From an uncultured Bacteroidales bacterium (GTDB taxonomy: Bacteria; Bacteroidota; Bacteroidia; Bacteroidales; Muribaculaceae), in NCBI GenBank assembly GCA_949285735.1, contig CASEAQ010000003.1, positions 26,216-90,215 of the forward strand: DNA of 64,000 nt. The letters are read 5' to 3'. The notes under the pieces were generated by a model that made no database searches, was not told the DNA's origin, and saw nothing but the letters and a program-made list of their open reading frames with translations. Positions 42,877 through 59,030 of this stretch are shown one piece after another; within the stretch, counting starts at the first letter, position 1, and every line of letters begins with the position of its first letter. A program made the translations under genes and the position numbers.

Positions 42877-45800
42877 CTATATCATTGGTTTTATCATCTT
42901 TTCTATGAATGCAATTTCTTCATCGGTCAGATGATATTTGATATAGAGTTGTTGGTCTATTTCGGGTATTGTTCCACTCCAATTAACATCACCATTGGTG
43001 GTAAAATCTTGCATTGGAACAAATGCGAAACATTCTTTAGTCACATTTACTGAGGTTACTCCTTGTCGAAGAAGAAAACGAGCAAATTTTGTCAGAAGGT
43101 ACTTTTTATAATTTGTAGCTTCTTCCAGTGTACTGAAAACAGCTGTGTCAATGTAAGTTTCTGTATTAATTTCGGCAGGTGATAGTATTTGAGGTTCAGT
43201 TAATACCCGGTATCCTTCACCCGGTTTAACACTCATTTCACCATTGCTTGGAACAAAACGCCCAACAATTATTTTAAATTGGTCTATATATTCAATGCCT
43301 TTAGATATGTCTGTTCGGTAAACTTTTGCCCACCCTTTACTTGTAAGTATTTTTATATTACCTTGGTCTCTTCCTCGAAAATATGTTCTAAATCCAAATG
43401 GATTAATTGAAAGGACAAGACGATTCAGATATGATGTTGATTTTGACGTAATCTTTTCAAGGATAGAAACAGCCGCATTTGAACGAATAAGTGTATCAAA
43501 TTGATTTAAGTATCGGTTTGCCGTAGTATCTTTTAAGGCATTATAATTTGTTACCTTACAAGTTCCATGATAATTTGCTTCCCATAAGAACGTACAAAGC
43601 CCACCTGCAATATCAACAGTAGGGAAAAGGTCTTTGCTGAGCTCGTAGTCATGTAGTTGAGAAAGATGGGTGTCAGAAATCATGTCAGAACGGAATCCAT
43701 CCAAACCTCGTCCACCCGCATACCAACGTGCAGGCATAATCAGGCTTATATAATTGGGTTGTATCCGTTTTGCGATATTCATGAAATATTGATATACGGG
43801 AATGGCTCCTCTATCAGTACCACCATCCATAACCTGATATGGCGGATTGCCTACTATTGCGTTGAATTTCATGTTGTCGTTATCATTTGCTTTCCAAAAG
43901 GAGCGACCTTTTGCCATCTTTTCGATGAAGTTTTGGGGTTTGTTTTTGATTTGGTTTATTAAATCCTCGAAATAACGGGTGTTTACTTTCGCTTTGCGGA
44001 AGCCTACCAGTGTGCGGCGGGTGATGCTCTTTGCCATTGGGGTCTTGCAGACTACGAAGATGTTTTCGGCAACGACCTTGTCCCACACTGCCTGCTGTTC
44101 TTCGAGCGTGGTGGCTGAGATGGTGCTGTCTTTCAACTGGGAGCGGTAAATGCTGTATGCCATGTAGAGCGGATATAAGCCCGACTTGGAGTTTATTTCC
44201 AAAATGCGACTGTCGGGGGTGAACACTTCTGCTGTAACCTGCCCGTGGTCGATGAAGCGCGGGTCGTCAAGGGTATTCTCGTAATCTTTGTCAAAGAAGC
44301 AGTAGCCGCCCAAGCAGTCGCCAAGGTGCATATTTACCACGCGCCACGGAGTGAGCACCGTTTCCTTGTCGGGATTGCGGAACGTGCTGAAGATGTCGGT
44401 GATGCGGCTGATGCGTTCCTCTACACTCAGTCGGTCGGCAGCCCGAGCCATTGCACGTATGCGCTTGCCTGCGGCACGGAAAATGTCGGGGTCGTAGTAT
44501 TTCTTGAAGGCGTTGAACCGTTGCTTGCTCACTCCACGGGGCATGAATTCTTCCCACGAGCGAGGGTCGATTTTTTCGGCGAAGTTGTCGATTGTGATTT
44601 CTTCAACTTCGCCCTCTAATTCCGCGCCATAGATGAGCAGGGGCATACGGATAGATATGCCGCGGAGAATGGAGATAGCTGCCTCGCGGTTCTTTGTCTT
44701 CTTATCTAATTCCTCTTTTCGCTTCTTTTCTTCTTCAGTAAGCTCTTTCTTGGGTTTCTTTTTCAGCTTTTCTAACTCCTCATATTCTTCTTTTGTCAGC
44801 CCTTGGTTGTTGATGTCCACTTGGTTGGTCTTGGGCATAGCCTTGGTTTGACCGATAATTTTTTTCAGGTCGTCAAACTCCTGTAATTCCAAGTCGCCCA
44901 ACTTTAAAAGCTCGTTGTTATACAGGCTATTGTCCTCGAATCCGTTGCGCACTACACGCTCCACATAGACTTTCTTCAACTGCTCCAGCATTCGAGGCAC
45001 GTCAAACTTGTCCATGCGTGAACCTTCGATGGAAATCACGGGGCAGAAGTTGAGGAAGTCGCCCATCGTCTGTCGGTCGGTCTGCGAGGTCTTGCCTGCC
45101 TTGGCTGAGATTTTGGCAGTCTCGGCAAGCACGCGCAGAGTGCGGTCGGGTGCGAAGTCGAACACGTAGCACTGTTCCTTTACTTTCGGGCTATCTGGTG
45201 GTAAGGGCGTTTGAACACGGAAGATGGTCTGCATGTAGCTCGATGCCGCTGTGTTAAATGAGCCCGACAGCATGAACACGGCAGCCCATGCCGGAACGCT
45301 TACGCCCGTTGTCAAGCGTCCGCACGACAGGGTGATGGTGCGCGTCGCGTCGGGGTCTTTGCCGATGGCGTTGTTTACCGCTTCGAGCGCATTGCGGTTT
45401 TCCTCGTCGCCGTCGCCAGCCACATTGACAATGGTGAAATGTTGGAAAACAGGGTGGCGTTGCAACAGCGCGCTCAAGGCTTTAGCTTCCTTCACGCCGG
45501 GGAGCATCCACAGCGTGTGGCGGAAAATGTTGCGGTATTCGGCGTTGGCAAATGGATAACAGCTTTCCTTGTCCTCCTTTGTCAACAGGTTGAGGAAAGC
45601 GGTGACATCATGCTCGTGGACGAGGTTGTTGTCGCGGTCAACGCGGAAAAACTCACGGAAGTTGAAAGCCACGTCTTCGTCGGTAAACTCGTTGAGCAAG
45701 CGACCGAGGTCGTAGGTGTATATGTTCATGACAGGCAGTGCGGCATACGGGTTGGGGTCGCCAAAGTGTGTTTTGTCCCATTCCTGTTTGGCGCGCTGCT

Positions 45801-46812
45801 CCATCACGTAGTCCCATGTATAAATTTCATCGTCCTTGAAGTCGTCGAGCAGATTGAACGGAGTGCCCGACAGGCGCAGGACTTTGGTGGCGCTTTTGAC
45901 CAATTCTGCCATTACCGCCTTGCCGAGTTCGGTCTGTGTGCCTTCGTGCGCCTCGTCCACGATAACCAAGTTCCAGGGCGTTGCAAAAATTTCGTTGTTC
46001 TTGTCGAAGTTTCCACCCACGAGTTCCGAGCCGCGCAAGTCCTGCATCGAGGCAAAATACACATAGTGCAATCCATCGACCGTTGCACGGCGTTCGAGAT
46101 TGGAGTGGCTCTCGCCATTGTTTTTAGAGCCGTAGGCATAATTGGGGCTGTCGTAGAATATTTTGCCGAAATCCACAAACCAACCGCTGTCAACCACAGG
46201 ACGGTGCGTGAGGATAAGCGTTCGCTTGAACCCCATCTCCTTTACCACCTGCAATGCCGACAATGTCTTGCCGAAGCGCATCTTGGCATTCCAAAGCATC
46301 TGGTTGCTTCGCTTGAATTGTTTCTTGGTCTTGTCGATGGCTTCGCGTTGCTCGGGGCGGAATGCGATGGGGTTGCGTCCATGTTCCACCTCGCCCGGCG
46401 ACAATGATTCTTTGCCCTCCTTGACGGCAGCAATGGCGCGTTTTACGACATCGAGCGTGGTTATGAACCACTCGTTTGCCTTGTTCTCCTTGTCAAACAC
46501 TTTCCTTTTCACTCCCGAACGTTCCAGCACGGCATGTACCTCCTTGTCGTTGAACGAGCGCAAGCCGCCACGGTTGTACAGCGTCAGCTCGGTGTGCAGC
46601 AGGTCGTAGCGAATGCCGGCGGTCTGCGTGTATTGGTTGATGCGTTTCCTTGCCGCCTCGTTCAGCGGCTTGCTGTTAGGTGCCAGCCCTATGACATTCT
46701 CGTCGTCGCAGGTAGCTTCACCTATCTTCAGGCAACCCTCATGCTCGGCATCATTGATGCGAAACACGTATATCAGCTTCAATTTAAGGGAAGAGAAGTA
46801 TTTCATAAGCAT
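42877..46812 (-). CDS. Fused GIY-YIG / helicase / Eco57I-type methylase R-M protein
   Basis: A 1311-residue protein. Residues about 12-95 resemble a GIY-YIG nuclease (LIYVFRIN...CLKIGEAT). A superfamily 2 helicase/translocase follows: MRFGKTLSAL Walker A (GKT 181-183), DEAH (286-289), RLSGTPFN and, near 498-533, the motif V/VI-like CGRLTTGVSV and QTIFRVQT. A charged coiled coil spans about 675-710. The methylase has motif I LEINSKSG (871-878) and catalytic NPPY (989-992), then a probable target-recognition region. It likely restricts and methylates DNA in one chain. The last about 320 codons are visibly more AT-rich than the rest. Confidence 0.82.
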   Translation of the reverse strand: MLMKYFSSLKLKLIYVFRINDAEHEGCLKIGEATCDDENVIGLAPNSKPLNEAARKRINQYTQTAGIRYDLLHTELTLYNRGGLRSFNDKEVHAVLERSGVKRKVFDKENKANEWFITTLDVVKRAIAAVKEGKESLSPGEVEHGRNPIAFRPEQREAIDKTKKQFKRSNQMLWNAKMRFGKTLSALQVVKEMGFKRTLILTHRPVVDSGWFVDFGKIFYDSPNYAYGSKNNGESHSNLERRATVDGLHYVYFASMQDLRGSELVGGNFDKNNEIFATPWNLVIVDEAHEGTQTELGKAVMAELVKSATKVLRLSGTPFNLLDDFKDDEIYTWDYVMEQRAKQEWDKTHFGDPNPYAALPVMNIYTYDLGRLLNEFTDEDVAFNFREFFRVDRDNNLVHEHDVTAFLNLLTKEDKESCYPFANAEYRNIFRHTLWMLPGVKEAKALSALLQRHPVFQHFTIVNVAGDGDEENRNALEAVNNAIGKDPDATRTITLSCGRLTTGVSVPAWAAVFMLSGSFNTAASSYMQTIFRVQTPLPPDSPKVKEQCYVFDFAPDRTLRVLAETAKISAKAGKTSQTDRQTMGDFLNFCPVISIEGSRMDKFDVPRMLEQLKKVYVERVVRNGFEDNSLYNNELLKLGDLELQEFDDLKKIIGQTKAMPKTNQVDINNQGLTKEEYEELEKLKKKPKKELTEEEKKRKEELDKKTKNREAAISILRGISIRMPLLIYGAELEGEVEEITIDNFAEKIDPRSWEEFMPRGVSKQRFNAFKKYYDPDIFRAAGKRIRAMARAADRLSVEERISRITDIFSTFRNPDKETVLTPWRVVNMHLGDCLGGYCFFDKDYENTLDDPRFIDHGQVTAEVFTPDSRILEINSKSGLYPLYMAYSIYRSQLKDSTISATTLEEQQAVWDKVVAENIFVVCKTPMAKSITRRTLVGFRKAKVNTRYFEDLINQIKNKPQNFIEKMAKGRSFWKANDNDNMKFNAIVGNPPYQVMDGGTDRGAIPVYQYFMNIAKRIQPNYISLIMPARWYAGGRGLDGFRSDMISDTHLSQLHDYELSKDLFPTVDIAGGLCTFLWEANYHGTCKVTNYNALKDTTANRYLNQFDTLIRSNAAVSILEKITSKSTSYLNRLVLSINPFGFRTYFRGRDQGNIKILTSKGWAKVYRTDISKGIEYIDQFKIIVGRFVPSNGEMSVKPGEGYRVLTEPQILSPAEINTETYIDTAVFSTLEEATNYKKYLLTKFARFLLRQGVTSVNVTKECFAFVPMQDFTTNGDVNWSGTIPEIDQQLYIKYHLTDEEIAFIEKMIKPMI

Positions 46813-47831
46813 TATTTTAGGAGGTCGATGTATTTGATTCGCTTGCCTTTGCGTCCTGTCTGCGGGTCGCGGGCGTGCCAGTCCTTTATGTGGCAGTAAG
46901 TGCCATTGTGCTTAAAGGGGTTGCCGGTCTTGCAGCCTTCGCAAGCGGTCACAGCCTGTGTGGTTTCACCGAAAAGGTTGGTCGATGTCGCCACTGTGTC
47001 GTGGCAACTGCCAGGCACTACACCTTTAAGCCCGTCCATCTGCCACACGTTCCACGAAATGATGTAGGCGATGTAGTTCACCGACTTCGCCAACGGGTTT
47101 TTACCGAACTTGGCGCGGAAGTATTCGATGAATGAATAAAGCATCGACTCGCGCGCAATAAGCAGACTGTCGCCCTGCCACTCGTAGGCATAAATGCTTT
47201 TGTAGGCTTCCTGCGCGGCTTCTAACCATTCGCCCGAGGTGGTTGTGTTTTCGCCAACGATGCGTAGCTTGCGGTCGAGCAACCCTATGCGCTCGCCGAC
47301 GGGGATTATCGCGCCAGTGGTGGTGTCGTAGCGGCTGGCGATGTAGGGAGCTTCGCCGCAGGTGATTTCAAGCCGCGTGTCGCGCACATAGTCTTTCCAA
47401 GTTTTGCCGTCGGGAAATGTTATTTTGCTGGGATTGGTTTTCCAGCAGTGTGTGCCATCTTCTGCCATGTATTCGGTGTTGAATACATCTTTTCTGCCAA
47501 ACCACGCTTCGTCGATCAAGTTGTTCTGGGCATTGCACACCCATGCAGGCGTGAACACTTCTGCCATGTCGCGGACACGTGCCGACTGGGTATCCTTGTG
47601 TTTCAAGACGCGGGGCATGATTATGTGCCCGTTCTCACCAGTGATAAGTTCGGGCTGAATTGGGTCGTTATAGCCATAGCCGGCACCGAGATGCTCATAA
47701 TCGTTAGTTGCCCACAATATGTTGCGCACGTTGTCGTTCCTGCTCGTTGTGTGGTCTTTGAGCAGGGTTGACAATAATTCGGGATAAAATTGTAATATGT
47801 TGTTTTCCAGTATGTCAGCAGTTTCGGGCAC
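46812..47831 (-). CDS. Partner subunit of the fused R-M protein (subunit M-like)
   Basis: The 339-residue protein resembles proteins annotated as restriction subunit M that lie beside fused helicase-methylases. ARVRDMAEVFTPAWVCNAQN is the recognisable segment, with AEVFTP as in N6-adenine methylase families; LEITCGEAPYIASRYDTTTG follows and may be motif I-like. Four Cys/His near the end (CEGCKTGNPFKHNGTYCH) could bind metal. Start and stop share one base with the next gene (TAATG). GTG 47831 is the only usable start; an in-frame TAA lies 5 codons upstream of it, so the native 5' end may be altered. Confidence 0.75.
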   Translation of the reverse strand: MPETADILENNILQFYPELLSTLLKDHTTSRNDNVRNILWATNDYEHLGAGYGYNDPIQPELITGENGHIIMPRVLKHKDTQSARVRDMAEVFTPAWVCNAQNNLIDEAWFGRKDVFNTEYMAEDGTHCWKTNPSKITFPDGKTWKDYVRDTRLEITCGEAPYIASRYDTTTGAIIPVGERIGLLDRKLRIVGENTTTSGEWLEAAQEAYKSIYAYEWQGDSLLIARESMLYSFIEYFRAKFGKNPLAKSVNYIAYIISWNVWQMDGLKGVVPGSCHDTVATSTNLFGETTQAVTACEGCKTGNPFKHNGTYCHIKDWHARDPQTGRKGKRIKYIDLLK

Positions 47832-48379: not shown

Positions 48380-49588
48380 TTACAGTCCTTTCAGTATAAG
48401 CGAGTTTGCCTTGTCTATAACCGAGCTGTCCAACGAGGCGAGGTAAATGCGTGTGGTTTCCTCCGAATCGTGCCCCATGCCTTCGCTAATGACCGAAATG
48501 GGAATGTTTTTACTCTTGGCAATACTTGCCCACGAATGGCGCGCGACATACATGGTGAGCGGAGCGGCAATGCTGCACAGGCGGGCAATCTCTTTCAGAT
48601 ATTTGTTGGTGCGGAATAGTGTGCTCTTGTATTGGCTGCGCAACTTCTTGGAAGGCAGTTTCAAGATTGGAAGCAGATAATCGCCCGAGCAGTCGGCAGC
48701 ATATTTTGTTGTTATCTCTTCCATGCAGCTTTCCCACCTGATGTGGAGCTGTTGCCCCGTTTTGTGCCTGCGATAGCTAAGAATGCCGTTTTTCAGGTCA
48801 GATTTCTTCAAATATGCCATGTCGATGAACGACATTCCTCGGGTGTAGAACGAAAAGAGGAACATATCCCTTGCCAATTCCCAGTGAGGCATTCCCGTCA
48901 AGTCGAGCTCTTTGATGCGTCGGATGGCTTTCAGGGAGATGGCGCGTTTCACGGTCTTGTCCATTCCCGTGTAAACGTGTTTGAATGGTTGTTTCTGTGC
49001 TGTCAGCCCTTTTTCCACGGCGCGGTTGTAGGTGGCGCGGAGTATGCGCATGTAGAACGATATGGTGTTGAGTGCCGCACCTTCCGATTTCAGCCATGCC
49101 TCATATTCCATCATCATGTCAGTGTCGATGTCGTCGAGCTGCACGTCTTTGTTGTGCCTGAACCGACCGAAGCTGGACAGTGCCGCCGCATAGGTCTCTG
49201 ACGTGCGTTCCCTGTTGAGCCGCTTCAATTGCTCGATTACCGAGTCCATGAAGTTGAAGAACGATTGCGAATCGGTGTGTTTCTTGAAATGCTCCACGAT
49301 AGCATCAGTCGAGCATAAACCTTTGAGAGTGAGGTCGCGTATGATGTTTTCCAGCCGCAATGCGTCGCGGTTGATGTGTTTTTGGAGTGATTGCAGATAG
49401 TGTTTCCTGTCGGCATTGATGCTGGGAGCGATTATGACAGACGCTGTCGCAGCGTTCCACTCGCTTGGTTGCAGGTGCATTCCTGTCCTGATTTGCCTGA
49501 CCGTGCGGTTGTGGATAATCTGATAATAGATTTTGCCTTCGTTGCCGTTTGCGGAAGATGGGCGGTATTTTACTTTGATTGATGCCAT
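48380..49588 (-). CDS. Tyrosine recombinase / integrase
   Basis: From ATG 49588 the protein has 402 residues, the size of Bacteroidota integrases. An N-terminal Arm-binding-like part and a SAM-like core-binding domain (about 105-200) precede the catalytic domain. Catalytic residues are visible: Arg in FSFYTRGMSF, HxxR in YVARHSWASIA, a His in GMGHDSEETT and the nucleophile Tyr in TRIYLASL. It cuts and rejoins DNA during integration or inversion. The longer frame to 49816 runs through the capsid terminator and is rejected. The neighbours are a capsid-like gene upstream and repeats downstream. Confidence 0.92.
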   Translation of the reverse strand: MASIKVKYRPSSANGNEGKIYYQIIHNRTVRQIRTGMHLQPSEWNAATASVIIAPSINADRKHYLQSLQKHINRDALRLENIIRDLTLKGLCSTDAIVEHFKKHTDSQSFFNFMDSVIEQLKRLNRERTSETYAAALSSFGRFRHNKDVQLDDIDTDMMMEYEAWLKSEGAALNTISFYMRILRATYNRAVEKGLTAQKQPFKHVYTGMDKTVKRAISLKAIRRIKELDLTGMPHWELARDMFLFSFYTRGMSFIDMAYLKKSDLKNGILSYRRHKTGQQLHIRWESCMEEITTKYAADCSGDYLLPILKLPSKKLRSQYKSTLFRTNKYLKEIARLCSIAAPLTMYVARHSWASIAKSKNIPISVISEGMGHDSEETTRIYLASLDSSVIDKANSLILKGL

Positions 49589-49718: not shown

Positions 49719-51131
49719 TTACTCGGTGGTGATGCGGACGTGGGCTTTGGGGTAGCGCAGCACGAGGCAGCTGGCTTCGGTGAGCACGGTGGCATCGGTG
49801 TTGCGCACTCCGGCACTGCGCAGGTCGAGGGCTTCGGTGCCGAATGGCAGGTGGCTATACTTCTGCAAGTATGCCGGGTCGATAATCATGCCGGCGGTTT
49901 CCATTCCGCACTCGTCGAACACCTCGGAGAGCAACACGTAGAGCCGCCCAAACTTGCTGCTGATTTCGGTGAAGTCGATGCCCCACTTGGTGACGGTGTC
50001 CTTGGCGTTGACCACCCGTGTGTAGTCGAGCTTGTTGATGGTCTCGATGAGCGACGAACCGGCGATGAGCACTTTGCGCTTCGAGCCGGCGTTGCCGGTG
50101 AATGCCGTGCGCATCAGGCTGATGAGGGTGTTTTGGTCGAACGCCTCGGGGTCGTAGCTGAAGTCTTTGCCTGCCTGGTGCCAGATGCCCTCGGTGAGCA
50201 TCACGTTCTCCTGCTTGCGGTAGTCGTAGATGAGGCTCTTCGTGCCGAACAGGAAACTCTTTTCCATGCCGAGCCTCATGTCATAGATTGCCGCTTCTTC
50301 CTGGTCGCTCAGGTTCCATTCCACCTCCTTGTCGGCAATCTTCATCAGTGTGCTTTGCTCCACTTGCATCTTGAAGATTTGACAATAGTTCTGCGCCTTT
50401 TGCGGCAGCGACTCGAATTGCGGTGTCTGCACGTCGAGTTCGGCAGCGGCGCGCCCCATTCTGATGATGAGCGTGTTGAGCGGCAGCGGCGGCACGCAGT
50501 TGAGGGTGCTGCCCACCTTTATCCCGTTGACAGCCATCACGGTCACGCCGGCATCGTCTTTTGCCACGACGTACAGCACGAGCAGCTTGCCCGAGCGCGT
50601 GGTTCCGTCGGCTTCAAAGCCCTCGATGCTGGGAACCATCAGCGTGTCGCTCACGGCAAACATGTCGTTGTTGCTGGTCTTTATCGTCACGCGTTGGGCT
50701 TCGGTGCCTTCGCCCGATGGGGTGTAGGCTGTCGTGATTGTGCACGATGTGGGCTTGGTGTCAACGGTGTAGTAGTCAACAATCATGCTTTTCGCCTTGC
50801 GTGGGCGGGCATACCTCGAAATTTGGTCGATGGGTGTCGCCATTGGGCGTATTTTCACTATGCGGCGGTCGATTTCGTTGAGCAGCAGTTCGCTGCCCGA
50901 TTGGCGCACGGTGTCGGTGGTGATGGGGCCGTCAACGACGTGTGTACCGCCGTCGGTGCCGGCAATCACGGCAGCCATAGCCATTGCCCCTTCGCCGCAG
51001 GTGTCACATCCCGTCAGCAATATTGCGATGGCGGCGATGATGCCCAGCACGAGGAAGATTGTGCGGCGGTTTTCCACGATTTTTTGCCACAAGCCACTGG
51101 CTTGGACTGTCAGGTTTTGATTGTTTTTCAT
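49719..51131 (-). CDS. Phage major-capsid-like protein with N-terminal membrane segment
   Basis: The 470-residue protein starts with about 20 soluble residues, then a hydrophobic segment (about 24-42, FLVLGIIAAIAILLTG). From about residue 47 it resembles HK97/SU10-type major capsid proteins of Bacteroidota phages: SGSELLLNEIDRRIVKIRP, MATPIDQISRYARPRKAKSM, VDYYTVDT, and near the C-terminus EISSKFGRLYVLLSE and MIIDPAYLQKYS. I judge this from memory of such proteins, so homology needs a profile search. Head genes beyond its small partner are absent. A membrane-anchored, domesticated capsid-like protein or a prophage relic are both possible. GC is like the host. Confidence 0.55.
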   Translation of the reverse strand: MKNNQNLTVQASGLWQKIVENRRTIFLVLGIIAAIAILLTGCDTCGEGAMAMAAVIAGTDGGTHVVDGPITTDTVRQSGSELLLNEIDRRIVKIRPMATPIDQISRYARPRKAKSMIVDYYTVDTKPTSCTITTAYTPSGEGTEAQRVTIKTSNNDMFAVSDTLMVPSIEGFEADGTTRSGKLLVLYVVAKDDAGVTVMAVNGIKVGSTLNCVPPLPLNTLIIRMGRAAAELDVQTPQFESLPQKAQNYCQIFKMQVEQSTLMKIADKEVEWNLSDQEEAAIYDMRLGMEKSFLFGTKSLIYDYRKQENVMLTEGIWHQAGKDFSYDPEAFDQNTLISLMRTAFTGNAGSKRKVLIAGSSLIETINKLDYTRVVNAKDTVTKWGIDFTEISSKFGRLYVLLSEVFDECGMETAGMIIDPAYLQKYSHLPFGTEALDLRSAGVRNTDATVLTEASCLVLRYPKAHVRITTE

Positions 51132-51189
51132 GATGATAGTGTGTTGTTATTGGTTTGTATTATAGTGGCATTCCTGCCGTTGTGCTGTG

Positions 51190-51678
51190 TTAGAACGATG
51201 GAACAGAGCGGCGGCGTTTGACTTCGATAGCCGCATTGCGCCCGCGCAGGTAGCCGGCGGCATTGGCATCGGCAACGTCGGCATCGTGTCGGGCGGCTTG
51301 CAGCAAGATTCCTATCGCCGTGTCGCTCCAGTCGCCTTGCATCACAGTGCGCCCCATTTGGGCAATGCGTTGCGCGGTATCGTCGTCGAGATGGTGGCGA
51401 GCGGCAACGTCACTGGGCATCGGTGCTGGCGGTTGCGGAAAATTGCGGTGTGCGGCACAGTCGGCATTCTCGCCCGAGAGAAGGTCGCCGATGAAGCGGC
51501 ATAGTCGAGGGTCTTTCAGCGCGATTTCAACGAGCGGATTGTCGAGCCACTGTGCAAACTGGCTGGCAATGTCGGCAGGTTGTGGCTCTTCGGTGAGGTT
51601 GTCGGTGGCAGCCGTGGCTTCGTTCGTTGGCTCTGGCTGTGGCTGGGTTTGGTCGGTAAGTTCGTCAGTGTTTTCCAT
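51190..51678 (-). CDS. Small acidic protein before the capsid-like gene, scaffold-like
   Basis: The 162-residue protein begins with a Pro/Gln/Glu/Thr-rich acidic stretch (MENTDELTDQTQPQPEPTNE) and ends basic (EVKRRRSVPSF). The middle is helical (ADIASQFAQWLDNPLVEIAL; DDTAQRIAQMGRTVMQGDW). No signal or membrane segment. A low-complexity acidic head and basic tail, coded just before a capsid gene, is how phage scaffolding proteins look, but no family is recognised. It is 58 bases ahead of the capsid-like gene on the same strand. Confidence 0.55.
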   Translation of the reverse strand: MENTDELTDQTQPQPEPTNEATAATDNLTEEPQPADIASQFAQWLDNPLVEIALKDPRLCRFIGDLLSGENADCAAHRNFPQPPAPMPSDVAARHHLDDDTAQRIAQMGRTVMQGDWSDTAIGILLQAARHDADVADANAAGYLRGRNAAIEVKRRRSVPSF

Positions 51679-51703
51679 GATATGTGTGTTTTGGTTTGTG
51701 TTG

Positions 51704-51711
51704 CAAAGTTA
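51704..51711 (-). promoter_or_regulatory. -7 box of the scaffold-like/capsid-like operon
   Basis: TAACTTTG on the minus strand, 25 bases before the ATG at 51678. It lies between that gene and repeat copy B, so the module keeps a host-type promoter. Confidence 0.5.
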
Positions 51712-51801
51712 CTTCAGCCCACATGCCGCCGCAGCCATCAAAAGTGACACGGCTTTATTTAAAGTGTAATAACGGCGTAGCTCGGAATTCATAGGCACAG
51801 A

Positions 51802-52121
51802 GGGCGGCGAAGCTGTCCAATTTTGTGTTAACCGAGCGGTGACGCAGCCCTTTAGGGCAAGGAACCCTCGGAACGAGCTACCCACGCAGCAGGCCTCGAA
51901 GAGGTCCAACGTGTCGCTTTGACTGTGCTTAGACAGCATTACAACCGACAGGCATGTGGAGGATATGTGCGTTATTCTTTACACAAGAATGACAAAGGAG
52001 CTCCGTTGGACCTCTTCGAGTCCCTAAATTGGGTAGAGGTGGTGATGTCCGACGGTTCCTTGCCCACTACGTTGGGCTGCGTCGCCGTCGGTTAGCGCAT
52101 AGTTGGACGGCTTTGCCGCCC
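51802..52121. repeat. Long palindromic intergenic repeat, copy B
   Basis: GGGCGGCGAAGCTGTCCAA (51802-51820) pairs with TTGGACGGCTTTGCCGCCC (52103-52121) in 17 of 19 positions. The inner arms continue with GTTAACCG, GCGGTGACGCAGCCC, GGAACC and CCTCGAAGAGGTCCAACG against their inverses. Left and right ends align with copy A in the same orientation. About 320 bases, no gene. The gap 51679-52254 otherwise holds only promoters. Confidence 0.8.
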
Positions 52122-54203: not shown

Positions 54204-55298
54204 ATGGAACACCCCGAAAACGACCAGCAATATGCAGGTCTAACTGTCAACAAAGGCGTACAACAGCCACCGTCGGTCAATCCCTATATGACCATCCGCC
54301 GTCGCCGCCGTCAACTGTCGGCAGCTGAATATGTCGAGGGCATATTGCGTGGCGACATAACCATATTGAGCCAGGCGGTGACGCTGGTTGAGAGCCTTAA
54401 TCCCGACCATGAGGCAGTGGCACAGGAAGTGATTGAGAAGTGCTTGCCCCACTCGGGCAAGTCGATGCGCGTGGGCATCACCGGCGTGCCGGGTGCCGGC
54501 AAAAGCACCAGCATCGATGTCTTCGGGCTGCATGTGCTCAAGCAGGGCGGCAAGCTCGCCGTGCTTGCCATCGACCCCAGCAGCGAGCGGTCGAAGGGGA
54601 GCATACTCGGCGACAAGACACGCATGGAGAAGCTGTCGGTTCACCCCAATGCCTTCATTCGCCCCAGCCCCTCGGCAGGTTCGCTGGGCGGTGTTGCCCG
54701 CAAGACGCGCGAGACCATAGTGCTGTGCGAGGCTGCGGGATTTGACAAGATTTTTGTCGAGACTGTCGGCGTGGGGCAAAGCGAGACCGCCGTCCATTCG
54801 ATGGTCGATTTCTTCCTGCTCATTCAGCTTGCAGGCACTGGCGACGAGCTGCAGGGCATCAAGCGCGGCATAATGGAGATGGCTGATGGCATCGTCATCA
54901 ACAAGGCCGACGGCGACAACGTTGACCGTGCCAACCTCGCCGCAACACAGTTCCGCAACGCCTTGCACCTGTTCCCGTTGCCGCCCAGCGGCTGGGCACC
55001 GCGCGTGATGACCTATTCGGGCTACTACGAGATAGGCATTGAGCAGGTGTGGCAGATGATATACGACTACTTCGACTTCGTGAAGAAGAACGGCTATTTC
55101 CAAGAGAAACGCCGCCAGCAGGAGCTGTATTGGATGTATGAGACCATCGACGAGAAGCTCAAGGACAGTTTCTACCAGAACCCGGTGATAGAAGAGATGC
55201 TTGCGGCAAAGCGCAACCTTGTGCTTGGCAGCAAGCAAAGCTCGTTTGTCGCCGCTCACGAAGTCCTCGACCACTACTTCTCCATGCTCAAGAAATAG
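54204..55298 (+). CDS. meaB: Methylmalonyl-CoA mutase-associated GTPase
   Basis: From ATG 54204 the protein has 364 residues. It is a SIMIBI-class GTPase that guards and reloads B12-dependent methylmalonyl-CoA mutase. GVPGAGKST (94-102) is the P-loop. AIDPSSERSKGSILGDKTRM, FIRPSPSAGSLGGVARKTRE, ETVGVGQSET and NKADGD (the N/TKxD base motif) follow. No mutase gene is in the window. The FokI-like system starts 16 bases after its stop, so that system was inserted right at its 3' end. Confidence 0.94.
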   Translation: MEHPENDQQYAGLTVNKGVQQPPSVNPYMTIRRRRRQLSAAEYVEGILRGDITILSQAVTLVESLNPDHEAVAQEVIEKCLPHSGKSMRVGITGVPGAGKSTSIDVFGLHVLKQGGKLAVLAIDPSSERSKGSILGDKTRMEKLSVHPNAFIRPSPSAGSLGGVARKTRETIVLCEAAGFDKIFVETVGVGQSETAVHSMVDFFLLIQLAGTGDELQGIKRGIMEMADGIVINKADGDNVDRANLAATQFRNALHLFPLPPSGWAPRVMTYSGYYEIGIEQVWQMIYDYFDFVKKNGYFQEKRRQQELYWMYETIDEKLKDSFYQNPVIEEMLAAKRNLVLGSKQSSFVAAHEVLDHYFSMLKK

Positions 55299-55314
55299 CA
55301 TATCAAGAAAAAAG

Positions 55315-56340
55315 ATGAGGTATATTGGAGGGAAAAGTCTTCTTGTTGATAAAATAAATGATTGCATATTGTCGAATACCGACAATGTGCAATCAATTTT
55401 TGATATTTTTGCAGGTTCTGGCGCAGTGACACAAGGATTGATGTCACGAGGGTATAGGCTTGTATCAAATGATATTTTATATTTTAGTTATGTATTGTTG
55501 AAAGGCTCTGTGGGGTTGGCGGAGAAGCCACGCTTTGAGCGATTAGGCATTGGTAATCCAATAGATTATTTAAACAATCTGACAATTGACAATACTGATT
55601 TCTGTCAATCCGATTTGTTTATTTACAACAATTATTCTCCTAATAAAAGTTGCGAAAGAATGTATTTTCAGCCAGAGAATGCTATTAAGATAGACATTGT
55701 CAGGCTTACTATTGAGAAATGGCATAATGCAGAACTAATAAATGACGACGAATATTATTATCTGTTGGCTTGCTTGATTTCGGCTGTTCCGTATGTGTCG
55801 AATATTGCTGGAGTGTATGCTGCCTATCTGAAATATTGGGACAAACGAACGTATAATAAACTTTCGTTGGCAGATATTGCAATCAATGCTCCAGATAATG
55901 TGTGCAAGTGTTTTAATGCTGATTATATGGATGTCATTGGAATGCCGACAGATTTGTTGTATGCCGACCCCCCTTATAATTCAAGGGAGTATTTACCTAA
56001 TTATCATATCCTGGAAACAATAGCACGGTATGATTATCCTGTCATCAAGGGTGTCACTGGGATGCGGAATTATAAGGATATGAAATCTCTTTTTTGCTCA
56101 AAGAAAAGCGTAGAAGTCGCTTTTGAGAATCTGATACGACATTGCTGTGCGCGATATTTGTTGATTAGCTACAATAATGAGGGGTTAATATCTACATCTC
56201 GATTGTCGGAATTATGTTCCGACTATGCGATAAAAGGGAGTTTCAAATTGATTGAGATTGACTATCGTCGATATAAAAGTAAAATCCCTAATAATAAAAA
56301 CGGATTGAAAGAGCAATTTTATTTTATGCAATTGCAATAA
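55315..56340 (+). CDS. FokI-like system: adenine methyltransferase 1 (D12 class)
   Basis: From ATG 55315 it has 341 residues: MRYIGGKSLL start, AdoMet motif FDIFAGSGAVTQG (DIFAGSG 30-36) and catalytic DPPY (218-221, in YADPPYNSREYLPNYH). It is an N6-adenine methylase. In FokI and StsI the two strand-specific methylases are fused in one chain of about 650 residues; here this gene and the next encode them separately. It should modify one strand of the endonuclease site. Strongly AT-rich compared with meaB. Confidence 0.88.
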   Translation: MRYIGGKSLLVDKINDCILSNTDNVQSIFDIFAGSGAVTQGLMSRGYRLVSNDILYFSYVLLKGSVGLAEKPRFERLGIGNPIDYLNNLTIDNTDFCQSDLFIYNNYSPNKSCERMYFQPENAIKIDIVRLTIEKWHNAELINDDEYYYLLACLISAVPYVSNIAGVYAAYLKYWDKRTYNKLSLADIAINAPDNVCKCFNADYMDVIGMPTDLLYADPPYNSREYLPNYHILETIARYDYPVIKGVTGMRNYKDMKSLFCSKKSVEVAFENLIRHCCARYLLISYNNEGLISTSRLSELCSDYAIKGSFKLIEIDYRRYKSKIPNNKNGLKEQFYFMQLQ

Positions 56341-56403
56341 TTATCCTGTTCTTGGAGTTGTCGCAATTATTATTTTACTTTGTGAAGATGATAATATAAG
56401 GTT

Positions 56404-57252
56404 ATGGCATTTAAGGCTCCTTTTAATTATATAGGAAATAAATATCGAATAATAAATGAATTGACATCTCTTTTCCCACAGAGAATCAACAATTTTGTTG
56501 ATTTGTTTTGTGGAGGAGGAGATGTGTCGATTAATATTCGTGCAAGCCATGTCTATGCCAACGATATAAATTATCACGTAATCGATATAATGCGAGAATT
56601 TCAGAGCCATCCAATAACAGAGATTCTCCAATATATAGACAACACAATCAGGGAATGGGGATTGAGTAAAGATTCTAAAGATAACTATTTACGTTTTCGA
56701 GATTATTATAATGCTAAAAAAAATCCACTCGATTTGTATATATTGATGTGCTTTAGTTTTAATTTCCAATTTAGATTTAACTCCAAGCATGAGTATAACA
56801 ATCCATTTGGGCAAAACCGAAGCCATTTTTCTGCAAATATGAGGGCAAATCTCATAACGTTTAGTCAATTGATTGGCAATGTGACTTTTTCATCGAACGA
56901 TTTCAGAAATTTTGATTATAATTTATTGGATAAAGGTGATATGTTGTATGCCGACCCTCCATATCTGCTTTCGTGTGGCTCGTATAATGATGGCAAACGC
57001 GGATTTAAGGGGTGGACTGTGGGTGATGACATGAGTTTGTTGGAAATATTGCAGGATTTGCATAATAGAGGTATCAATTTTGCACTGTCTAATGTGATAG
57101 AGCATAAAGGTATGCGTCATCAGTATTTAATCAATTGGGCAGAACGGAACGGCTTTATTATCCATCCGATAAATGTAAATTATAACAATTGTAATTACCA
57201 GAATAAAAATAAAACCACAACAACCAAAGAAGTCCTTATAACTAATTATTAA
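56404..57252 (+). CDS. FokI-like system: adenine methyltransferase 2 (Dam/D12 class)
   Basis: The 282-residue protein has APFNYIGNKYRIINEL, motif I FVDLFCGGGDVSINI (33-40 core), an ANDIN segment and catalytic DPPY (184-187). It is the second N6-adenine methylase of the pair and probably acts on the other strand of the asymmetric site. It lies 63 bases after methylase 1; its stop shares a base with the endonuclease start (TAATG). AT-rich. Confidence 0.9.
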   Translation: MAFKAPFNYIGNKYRIINELTSLFPQRINNFVDLFCGGGDVSINIRASHVYANDINYHVIDIMREFQSHPITEILQYIDNTIREWGLSKDSKDNYLRFRDYYNAKKNPLDLYILMCFSFNFQFRFNSKHEYNNPFGQNRSHFSANMRANLITFSQLIGNVTFSSNDFRNFDYNLLDKGDMLYADPPYLLSCGSYNDGKRGFKGWTVGDDMSLLEILQDLHNRGINFALSNVIEHKGMRHQYLINWAERNGFIIHPINVNYNNCNYQNKNKTTTTKEVLITNY

Positions 57253-59030
57253 TGAATATGAAATCACAACGCACGTTCGGCTGGATACAGAATCCAGCTA
57301 ATACGCTGACATTGCAGCGTGTGGTAGCAATCTTAGATTCTCATAGCGATGTGACGCAATGGCTGATAAATGAACGCGTCCCGTTGCTGAAAGATAATGG
57401 CTTGTTGCATGATGCAGATAAATGGAATGAATATATCGAATTGATACAATCTGGTGAACCAATACCATATTCCATTTTAAAGGGAAAAGGAAGTTTAACA
57501 GGGAAACGTAAAGACGCTAAATGCTCTGGAATAGTACAGGCTGTTATCGATGCGCAGAAAAGCATGAAAATTGTTGTTGACGGGCAGGAAAAAATTGTTC
57601 ATAAACCATACACTGATGATTGGACTGCAGACGGCTTCTTACGTTGGGGCATATCTGTTGGTTTCATAGAGTATCTTTTTGAAGATGATGCCTGTCAAAT
57701 TAGTGAATTGGGTAAAAGATTTATTATAGCTCAAGGAAAAGACTTTAATGACGTGTTGGGAGAGGCTTATCTGTCTTATCCACCAGTTTGCCGTATTTTG
57801 CAATTATTGTCAAACGGAGAGCATTTGACAAAATTTGAAATTGGACGAAATTTAGGGTTTACTTCCGAAGCTGGATTTACGTCGTTTCCTCAAAATATAT
57901 GGGTGCAAGCCTATCAAGAGAATCCCGATGAAAGGTTGACCATAAGAAATAACTATGAAGGATCGTCGGATAAGTATGCTCGTATGATATGTTCGTGGTT
58001 GGCTGAGATTGGGTGGGTGAGTATTGTTGAGAAACAAGTCGTTGAACGGTATGGAAGCAAGACTTACTCGTGTGTCATAACACAGGCTTATATGATAACG
58101 GCACTTGGCAAGGTTAATTATAAACGAGCAATAGGTAAAAGTCGGATAGCGAGGATTCCCAAAATAGTATTTTTTGGAATGTTATCTACAAAACCTGCCG
58201 ATAAGGACTATCTGCGATTAAGGCGAGCCTTGATTATTAAATGCGCAGAAAAAGAATACAGAACACTTGACCAAATAAGAGACTTTCTTGCATCAAAAGG
58301 TTTGGTTGAAACAAATGAAACTATAAAAGACGATTTGCAAGGATTGGTTAATATAGGGCTAAATTATTCATGCACCTCGGGGAAATATAAATTAAATGAC
58401 GAAATTCTATGTCTGAGGATTCCGATGCAGGATAAGTCTTACATCAAGGGGGATACTTCAGTGATTAAAGAGCGTATAAGAACCAACTTGAAGTGTATTA
58501 ATCAAAAATATCTTGTTCTTGTTGATTTGTCTCTCAATGGAAAAGCCAATTTGGAATTTGAGATTCAAACGATGGACTTGTTGACCAACGAACTTGAATT
58601 TGGAGGTTGTCACCTTGGCGGTTCTCGCCGACCCGATGGGGTAATCTATTATGATGTAAATGGATTGATTATCGACAATAAAGCATATTCCAAAGGATAT
58701 GCCTTACCTCGCCATCAGGTTGATGAGATGGTTCGCTACTTGCAAGAAAACAATGAACGCCGGGAAGATATAAATCCTAATAAATGGTGGAATGAATTTA
58801 ATGATAATGTTTCTCATTTCAATTTTGCATTTATTTCATCGTTTTTTACGGGGCAGTTTTCCATACGATTGCAAGAGATTAAAAATCGTACAGGAATAAA
58901 CGGGGCAGTCTTGGATGTTGAAAATTTGTTGCTGGTAGCCGAGGCGTTGAAGCGAGGAGATTTGTCTTATCGGGATTTCTTTAAATTGTTTGACTGTAAT
59001 GATAGCATTGCCTTTCGGTCAGATTCGTGA
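57252..59030 (+). CDS. FokI-like type IIS restriction endonuclease
   Basis: The 592-residue protein aligns along its length with R.FokI as I remember it. The recognition part begins RTFGWIQNPANTLTLQRVV and contains SSDGFLRW-like ADGFLRWGISVGFIEYL, HLTKFEIGRNLGF and EGSSDKYARMI. The C-terminal cleavage domain has GGSRRPDG (Asp462), IIDNKAY (Asp475, Lys477), the PD-DxK site equal to FokI D450/D467/K469, then HQVDEMVRYLQEN and INPNKWW. It probably binds an asymmetric site near GGATG and cuts outside it; exact site unproven. AT-rich, ends 130 bases before flavodoxin. Confidence 0.93.
   Translation: MNMKSQRTFGWIQNPANTLTLQRVVAILDSHSDVTQWLINERVPLLKDNGLLHDADKWNEYIELIQSGEPIPYSILKGKGSLTGKRKDAKCSGIVQAVIDAQKSMKIVVDGQEKIVHKPYTDDWTADGFLRWGISVGFIEYLFEDDACQISELGKRFIIAQGKDFNDVLGEAYLSYPPVCRILQLLSNGEHLTKFEIGRNLGFTSEAGFTSFPQNIWVQAYQENPDERLTIRNNYEGSSDKYARMICSWLAEIGWVSIVEKQVVERYGSKTYSCVITQAYMITALGKVNYKRAIGKSRIARIPKIVFFGMLSTKPADKDYLRLRRALIIKCAEKEYRTLDQIRDFLASKGLVETNETIKDDLQGLVNIGLNYSCTSGKYKLNDEILCLRIPMQDKSYIKGDTSVIKERIRTNLKCINQKYLVLVDLSLNGKANLEFEIQTMDLLTNELEFGGCHLGGSRRPDGVIYYDVNGLIIDNKAYSKGYALPRHQVDEMVRYLQENNERREDINPNKWWNEFNDNVSHFNFAFISSFFTGQFSIRLQEIKNRTGINGAVLDVENLLLVAEALKRGDLSYRDFFKLFDCNDSIAFRSDS

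Follow-up and report, generated by a model that had tools for sequence, protein, structure and literature searches.

Two adjacent genes in a 64,000-nt stretch of DNA from an uncultured Bacteroidales bacterium of the family Muribaculaceae (assembly GCA_949285735.1, contig CASEAQ010000003.1, positions 26,216 to 90,215; hereafter, the window) probably belong, at a likelihood of roughly 80%, to a gene transfer agent (GTA)-like viriform of this family that is podovirus-derived, dispersed and run by the host. One gene encodes a major capsid protein and the other a small acidic protein that probably serves as its scaffold. We propose only tentatively the fuller version of this reading, namely that the system is the first GTA of the Bacteroidota: a shattered podovirus retained in most members of the family and in some genomes of neighbouring ones, organised as a one-promoter regulon in the window's genus, and assembled at the inner membrane through an ancestral segment of the capsid protein.

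The capsid gene (49719..51131, minus strand, in window coordinates) encodes 470 residues. Their likeness to a phage capsid protein, judged by eye in an earlier sequence-only reading of the window, was borne out by family searches: residues 78-468 matched SU10_MCP (PF17236; Pfam E 1.7e-52, 179.2 bits against a cut-off of 24.1) and residues 28 to 467 matched PHROG 26635 (E 3.5e-95), with no match to the encapsulin family in these searches. Among PDB sequences, the capsid protein of Vibrio phage VP1 was matched with an E of 5.5e-7, and the remaining two matches were weak (E 0.8-0.9). The same reading had proposed a structure prediction as a check, and this pointed to an HK97-type fold. When an AlphaFold2 model (35 sequences, mean pLDDT 66) was compared with the PDB using Foldseek, the VP1 capsid came first (E 1e-16) and phicrAss001 followed from rank 2 on; SU10 first appeared at rank 12, encapsulins at 16 and HK97 at 21. 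TM-scores were low (0.27-0.38 of the query, among the matches listed), which we attribute to low-confidence stretches of the model. Pfam score and fold matches together identify the protein as an SU10-type HK97 major capsid protein.

The partner gene (51190..51678, minus strand) encodes 162 residues with a net charge of -12 and matches PHROG 22323 (E 6.6e-6), a family it shares with the protein whose gene directly precedes the capsid gene of Bacteroides phage BF1-TP2. A profile search recovered relatives ahead of the capsid gene at 82 of the 105 other family loci; their mean charge is -12, and 80 of the 82 are negative. The scaffold-like character noticed at the outset is thus supported, and a scaffold role is probable. 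Both frames are intact, and the GC content of the capsid and small genes (58% and 61%, against a window mean of 51%) lies at the upper end of the neighbouring 1-kb stretches. A promoter motif, TTTTG-N27-TAACTTTG, occupies 51704..51743 on the minus strand and ends 26 bp upstream of the small gene; we take TAACTTTG to be a Bacteroidales-type promoter box, in agreement with the host-type promoter first suggested for the pair.

The sequence-only reading had seen a two-gene module with no terminase, portal or tail genes nearby. This holds for the surroundings of the pair within the window and fails for the genome, where portal, terminase and further genes exist as single copies elsewhere. In the window's genome (G000), single-copy terminase and portal genes lie at C56:13251 and C61:6270 (contig:position), genes of the families labelled c2 and c24 at C26:50165 and C26:58092, a k8 gene at C1:102302, and a holin/endolysin pair behind a motif at C15:82426. 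Together with the window pair on contig C3, the genes thus occupy seven places on six contigs. Downstream of the capsid gene, many genera have c2 (~180 residues), a P22-like portal (c7) and the small genes k8 and k6; in the window's genus, these are scattered, and hardly any two genes of the system are adjacent. On a 3.31-Mb contig of G063, system loci are found near 0.18, 2.73 and 2.83 Mb, a scatter that binning errors cannot account for. Even on the assumption of a circular contig, 0.1 and at least 0.65 Mb separate these loci, and they therefore cannot travel as one piece. A genome of a neighbouring family, G139, carries its system genes on contigs 1, 4, 8 and 9.

Profile searches in 128 genomes, 77 of them Muribaculaceae, matched terminase in 74 genomes, portal in 74, c24 in 73, c2 in 69, k8 in 73 and k6 in 55. 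Outside the family, two to three genomes each were matched for all of these except k6. A hand count in the 77 family genomes gave capsid in 69, terminase in 67, portal in 68, c24 in 71 and c2 in 66, with all five in 59; it dropped as phage-type the capsids of G037 and G074, the terminases of G008, G035, G037 and G074, and the portals of G035, G037 and G074. A search of relatives for the same pair without other phage genes had been suggested; family genomes mostly carry portal and terminase as well.

The dispersed proteins could be identified with varying strength. The terminase matched PHROG 2 (E 2e-16) and T4 gp17 in the PDB (E 7e-12). Its ATPase stretch reads KARQWGGST in 48 of 52 sequences and KARQxGxST in all 52. 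Residues D485, E544, D635 and D636 (G000 frame) likely form the nuclease site; among rows with a letter at these positions, they are shared by at least 95% of the 40 from the family and 90% of the 12 from phages. Two members of the portal family matched P22_portal (E 1e-11 and 3e-13). For c24, a podoviral tail nozzle is a weaker, model-based candidate assignment. Against a viral structure library, its model matched an uncharacterised Podoviridae protein (E 1e-22), P22 gp10, tail tubular protein B and several stabilization proteins, and its PDB matches included the phicrAss001 tail muzzle (rank 11) and the Pam1 tail machine (rank 24). The c24 sequence had no match in the PDB and no profile match among 410 phage and prophage frames. 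The c2 protein is homologous to BF1-TP2 gp54, a phage protein encoded second after the capsid gene, with a weak PHROG match (E 0.02); because of its size and place, we regard it as a candidate connector. Since k8 adjoins the terminase gene in the phage contig L034 and lies one gene away from it in BF1-TP2 and in a second Bacteroides phage, BKO1-TP3, it is a candidate small terminase. PDB sequence searches with c2 and k8 returned nothing convincing.

The capsid gene was sought in 198 genomes, comprising 119 of the family (f1, including G000) and 79 others of the order. Homologues were found in 115. Within the family, 106 of 119 genomes had a strong match, four (G037, G074, G103 and G105) had distant, weak phage-type matches alone, and nine had none; in nine genomes there were two matches, the second being phage-type or partial. 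Outside the family, five of the 79 genomes had a match. On a capsid tree of 117 sequences, from which seven weak phage-type rows (23-26% identity) were left out, the 36 groups (genera plus phage and second-copy classes) required 36 label changes, against a minimum of 35 and a mean of 99 after shuffling. The phages BF1-TP2 and BKO1-TP3, the second, phage-type copies of G008, G035 and G060, and also the G137 copy fell outside the family capsids. By the sequence evidence, the capsid gene is inherited vertically along genera in the Muribaculaceae.

The ratio of nonsynonymous to synonymous substitution rates (dN/dS) of the capsid gene was about 0.02-0.13 over 18 pairs of related species, 16 of them with finite dS; the first 60 codons were omitted and dS was often near saturation. 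Such values indicate purifying selection and, together with the intact frames, agree with the earlier suggestion of domestication rather than decay. The other trees likewise followed the labels: 20 label changes against a minimum of 20 for terminase (52 rows) and 26 against 25 for portal (88 rows), both quick trees, the former with a long-branch warning and the latter with two phage-type rows labelled under genus g30. Pairwise distances were correlated between capsid and portal (rho 0.63, 77 genomes; 0 of 2000 permutations as high), terminase and portal (rho 0.53, 33 genomes; 0 of 2000) and capsid and terminase (rho 0.42, 39 genomes; 1 of 2000).

A shared promoter motif connects the scattered loci. 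In the window's genus, it consists of TTTTG, 24-28 bases and TAnnTTTG, and it was present upstream of eight of nine capsid operons, four of four detached portals and two of the four terminases fetched, compared to 0.95% of 1887 other frames; the G000 terminase became the third to show it when a wider stretch was examined. The derived pattern occurred at five places in G000, against one for a reversed control, and two of the five are the terminase and portal promoters; in this genome, the motif also precedes the candidate connector and holin genes. The match at C15:82426 stands before a holin-like gene and a Peptidase_M15_3 gene, and led to that pair. The endolysin is well matched (Peptidase_M15_3 E 5e-23; PHROG endolysin E 1e-38). 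The holin identity is weaker, falling just under the Pfam cut-off (Phage_holin_4_1 E 2.5e-4, 21.6 bits versus 22.2; PHROG holin E 0.0025). Each of the genus's nine genomes has a single copy of the holin gene. The holin gene adjoins c2 and portal in G024 and G046, portal in G026, the run c2-portal-k8-k6 in G051, and k8-k6 in G070.

A slightly wider pattern gave 46 matches in the nine genomes, compared to 19 for the reversed control. Twenty-six of the 46 lay upstream of system genes on the correct strand, where 0.03 would be expected by position alone: eight at capsid operons, five at portals, five at c2, four at holins, two at c24, two at terminases and none at k8. The pattern had been built in part from the capsid-operon, portal and terminase promoters but from none of the 11 at c2, c24 and holin genes, one of which is the match that led to the holin gene. 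The remaining 20 matches, and two of the five in G000 (L325, before a sulfatase-family gene, and L327), stand at no known system gene and are probably due to chance, as the reversed control itself gave 19.

From these genes, the following course of events can be proposed. A short-tailed ancestral phage would have been captured early in the history of the family or before, would have lost its replication and integration genes, and would have split into separate loci held by selection. A host-controlled signal would then fire the common promoter at the scattered loci. The scaffold and the capsid protein would assemble into a prohead around the portal, a step that might take place at the inner membrane via the N-terminal segment; the large terminase would pump chromosomal DNA into the head, and the connector and nozzle would close the head and form a short tail. 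Finally, the holin and the M15 endolysin would lyse the cell and release the particles.

RcGTA, one of the known systems, has one main cluster and a longer tail. The system described here is more strongly dispersed, and its ancestral phage had an SU10-type capsid, a P22-like portal and a candidate podoviral nozzle. It resembles RcGTA and the Rhodogtaviriformidae, as these are described in PMC9662315, in being derived from a Caudoviricete, endogenised across loci and vertically co-diversified with its hosts. That source defines a GTA by six features and allows similarity to Caudoviricete proteins as a criterion. Three of the six are seen by sequence in the Muribaculaceae: capsid, portal and terminase proteins similar to those of Caudoviricetes; vertical inheritance with co-diversification, judged from label changes close to their minima with genus labels standing for the host tree; and dispersal, with seven places on six contigs in G000. 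The other three features in that definition are encapsidation of mostly random host DNA, a head too small for the whole of the element's own genome, to which the spacing of the G063 loci is relevant, and delivery of the packaged DNA to other cells. We therefore call the system GTA-like. FpGTA of Faecalibacterium, the nearest described case, is presented in PMC12946183 as the first element of its kind from the human gut, and as the first to have a podovirus-like morphology; that paper makes no mention of Muribaculaceae or Barnesiella. As described there, FpGTA is encoded by two operons, its host genus is Gram-positive, and particles have been seen; the present system occupies seven places in one genome, belongs to another phylum, spans most of a family and is described from its genes. 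The shared promoter motif is a further difference. No GTA of Bacteroidales was found described in the titles and abstract openings listed for the literature covered, a scope that left preprints and most subscription journals outside.

Contiguous phages with related genes were also found. BF1-TP2 and BKO1-TP3 share with the dispersed system a homologous scaffold, a capsid with a hydrophobic N-terminus, c15, c2, terminase, portal and k8; a third Bacteroides phage, BS-TP4, is alike by its capsid match alone. They differ in that the Bacteroides phages have genomes of 64-68 kb with their genes close together, capsids about 40% identical, and portals of 644-673 residues (about 420-530 here). The contig L034 (IMGVR_UViG_2681813420_000001; 17.8 of 27.5 kb examined) has a capsid 57% identical to that of the window, grouping with the neighbouring-family copies, and carries scaffold, c15, c2, c5, k8 and terminase genes; it differs, as judged by eye, by a phage-like contiguous order, a fibre-like protein of 1156 residues and a lysozyme-like gene. 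In neighbouring families, Barnesiella among them, the loci L220-L223, L074, L077 and L088 retain c15, c5 or both as extra genes behind the capsid gene. The c5 of L221 and L223 belongs to a frame of more than 1100 residues, perhaps the missing tail fibre.

Several observations weigh against a host-run GTA-like system. Particles, packaging of host DNA, lysis, transfer and assembly at the membrane are deduced from gene content. In Muribaculaceae, no gene for receptor binding or for a tail fibre was identified, and in profile searches k6 was not found in G000 and c2 was absent from three of three g22 genomes. The c24 model was built from the L110 member with five sequences (pLDDT 65), and its best matches in the PDB fold search were eukaryotic beta-propellers, mostly generic. 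The holin was found in 46 of the 77 family genomes (some matches weak, five genomes with two) and in three outside, using a single-sequence query. The motif precedes 26 of 62 loci tested in the nine genomes, with k8 at zero of nine, and is established for one genus; beyond it, all six capsid operons of g3 have the motif, and in the remaining genera it is patchy or missing. Of 87 capsid operons in all, just 26 carry a loose form. Genus labels were used in place of a host tree. Four neighbouring-family capsids and L034 group inside the family capsids (support 93, drawn open), and the terminase tree sets L034 outside the family; both the time of capture and the purity of descent are consequently uncertain. 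Finally, the capsid, terminase and portal matches of G037 and G074 (99% complete) are all phage-type, and both genomes lack c24 and c2, though G074 still has a k8 match. This pattern suggests that the system was lost in part of genus g30.

Of the other explanations, a phage-derived particle that serves killing or another use, in the manner of PBSX or tailocins or in damage-linked lysis, and that packages host DNA without delivering it, is unlikely, though the likeliest among them. The gene set provides for packaging and lysis with no identified receptor-binding protein, and PBSX of Bacillus behaves in this way according to PMC12946183. Portal, terminase and the candidate nozzle are, however, kept by most family members, and the tail appears to be short, unlike that of tailocins.

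Decaying or merely abundant look-alike prophages are very improbable. True phages or prophage-like loci with related genes in one cluster do exist (L003, L004, L034 and L224-L232). A prophage is a contiguous element with integration and replication genes of its own; the genes described here are unlinked and the neighbouring recombinase is not conserved, replication genes not having been searched for. The single such copy per genome, its spread over unlinked contigs, the G063 spacing, the genus-following trees and the low dN/dS all argue against prophages. Equally hard to sustain is a domesticated capsid shell alone, such as an encapsulin-like compartment. It would fit a window that holds just the capsid and scaffold genes, and encapsulins do appear among the fold matches. 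An encapsulin is a self-sufficient shell with enzyme cargo that needs neither portal nor terminase, whereas both are about as widely kept here as the capsid, occurring in most family genomes, and share its promoter motif in G000. The minimal mobile element of the sequence-only reading, moved by the tyrosine recombinase directly downstream, can practically be dismissed: a relative 62% identical lies beside the capsid gene in G001, but none was found at seven of the eight other loci of the genus, and the capsid gene follows genus labels.

At the N-terminus of the capsid protein, the hydrophobic segment noticed ahead of the capsid part was recovered as a helix in the AlphaFold2 model (residues 22-40, 51012..51068, minus strand), preceded by a helix at 5-20. 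A hydrophobic N-terminal 19-mer was counted in 50 of 106 family capsids, in BF1-TP2 and BKO1-TP3, in L034 and in four neighbouring-family copies, taking the first start codon in frame with no individual checks. Since phages of the same capsid lineage carry the segment, and its presence in the family is patchy (12 changes needed on the capsid tree), it does not mark domestication. It is probably ancestral and lost more than once, and it likely serves head assembly at the membrane or forms a removable assembly domain. A lipoprotein capsid was considered as well, as the segment in the window ends in LLTGC, lipobox-like by eye; such a cysteine is found in just 18 of the 50 segment-bearing family copies, and the idea was rejected. 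A segment shared with phages raises the separate question of membrane-based head assembly.

Near the capsid gene, BF1-TP2 (L003 13112-13579) and BKO1-TP3 (L004 5957-6475) have a gene for a small membrane protein between terminase and k8, which their annotators likened to rhomboids. Homologues occur in the prophage-like loci L225, L226 and L227 and, weakly, L224; at the family capsid loci, blastp found no match. It is conceivable that a phage intramembrane protease trims the capsid anchor. Equating k6 with the rhomboid-like protein found no profile support.

The surroundings of the pair include other features. The downstream tyrosine recombinase (48380..49588, minus strand; 402 residues, Pfam phage integrase domains) is judged to be outside the system. 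Directly beyond it, 42877-47831 (minus strand) encodes an Eco57I-type methylase with a ResIII helicase domain and a 339-residue partner with no Pfam match; a 1311-residue protein of this region went unmatched by blastp at the other loci compared, and the region is possibly an island brought in beside the capsid gene. A FokI-like restriction-modification system, with two D12-class adenine methyltransferases and a FokI-type nuclease with all four FokI domains, lies in a low-GC island at 55201-59030 (plus strand). Between the capsid operon and the next gene (51895-52120), an inverted short repeat, GGACCTCTTCGAG, occurs at 51895 and 52008; by eye, L327 and the vicinity of the L295 terminase contain a similar sequence, so that it may be a dispersed repeat.

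Muribaculaceae rank among the dominant gut bacteria of mice. If the GTA-like reading is true, a DNA-packaging particle owned by these hosts and retained in most of the family would be an unrecognised route of gene exchange in the gut, and the lysis of producer cells would affect community dynamics. It would also represent an independent origin of GTAs, in a phylum for which we found none described. Strong dispersal means that such systems can hide from prophage finders, and the promoter motif offers a direct route to the missing genes and to the regulator.

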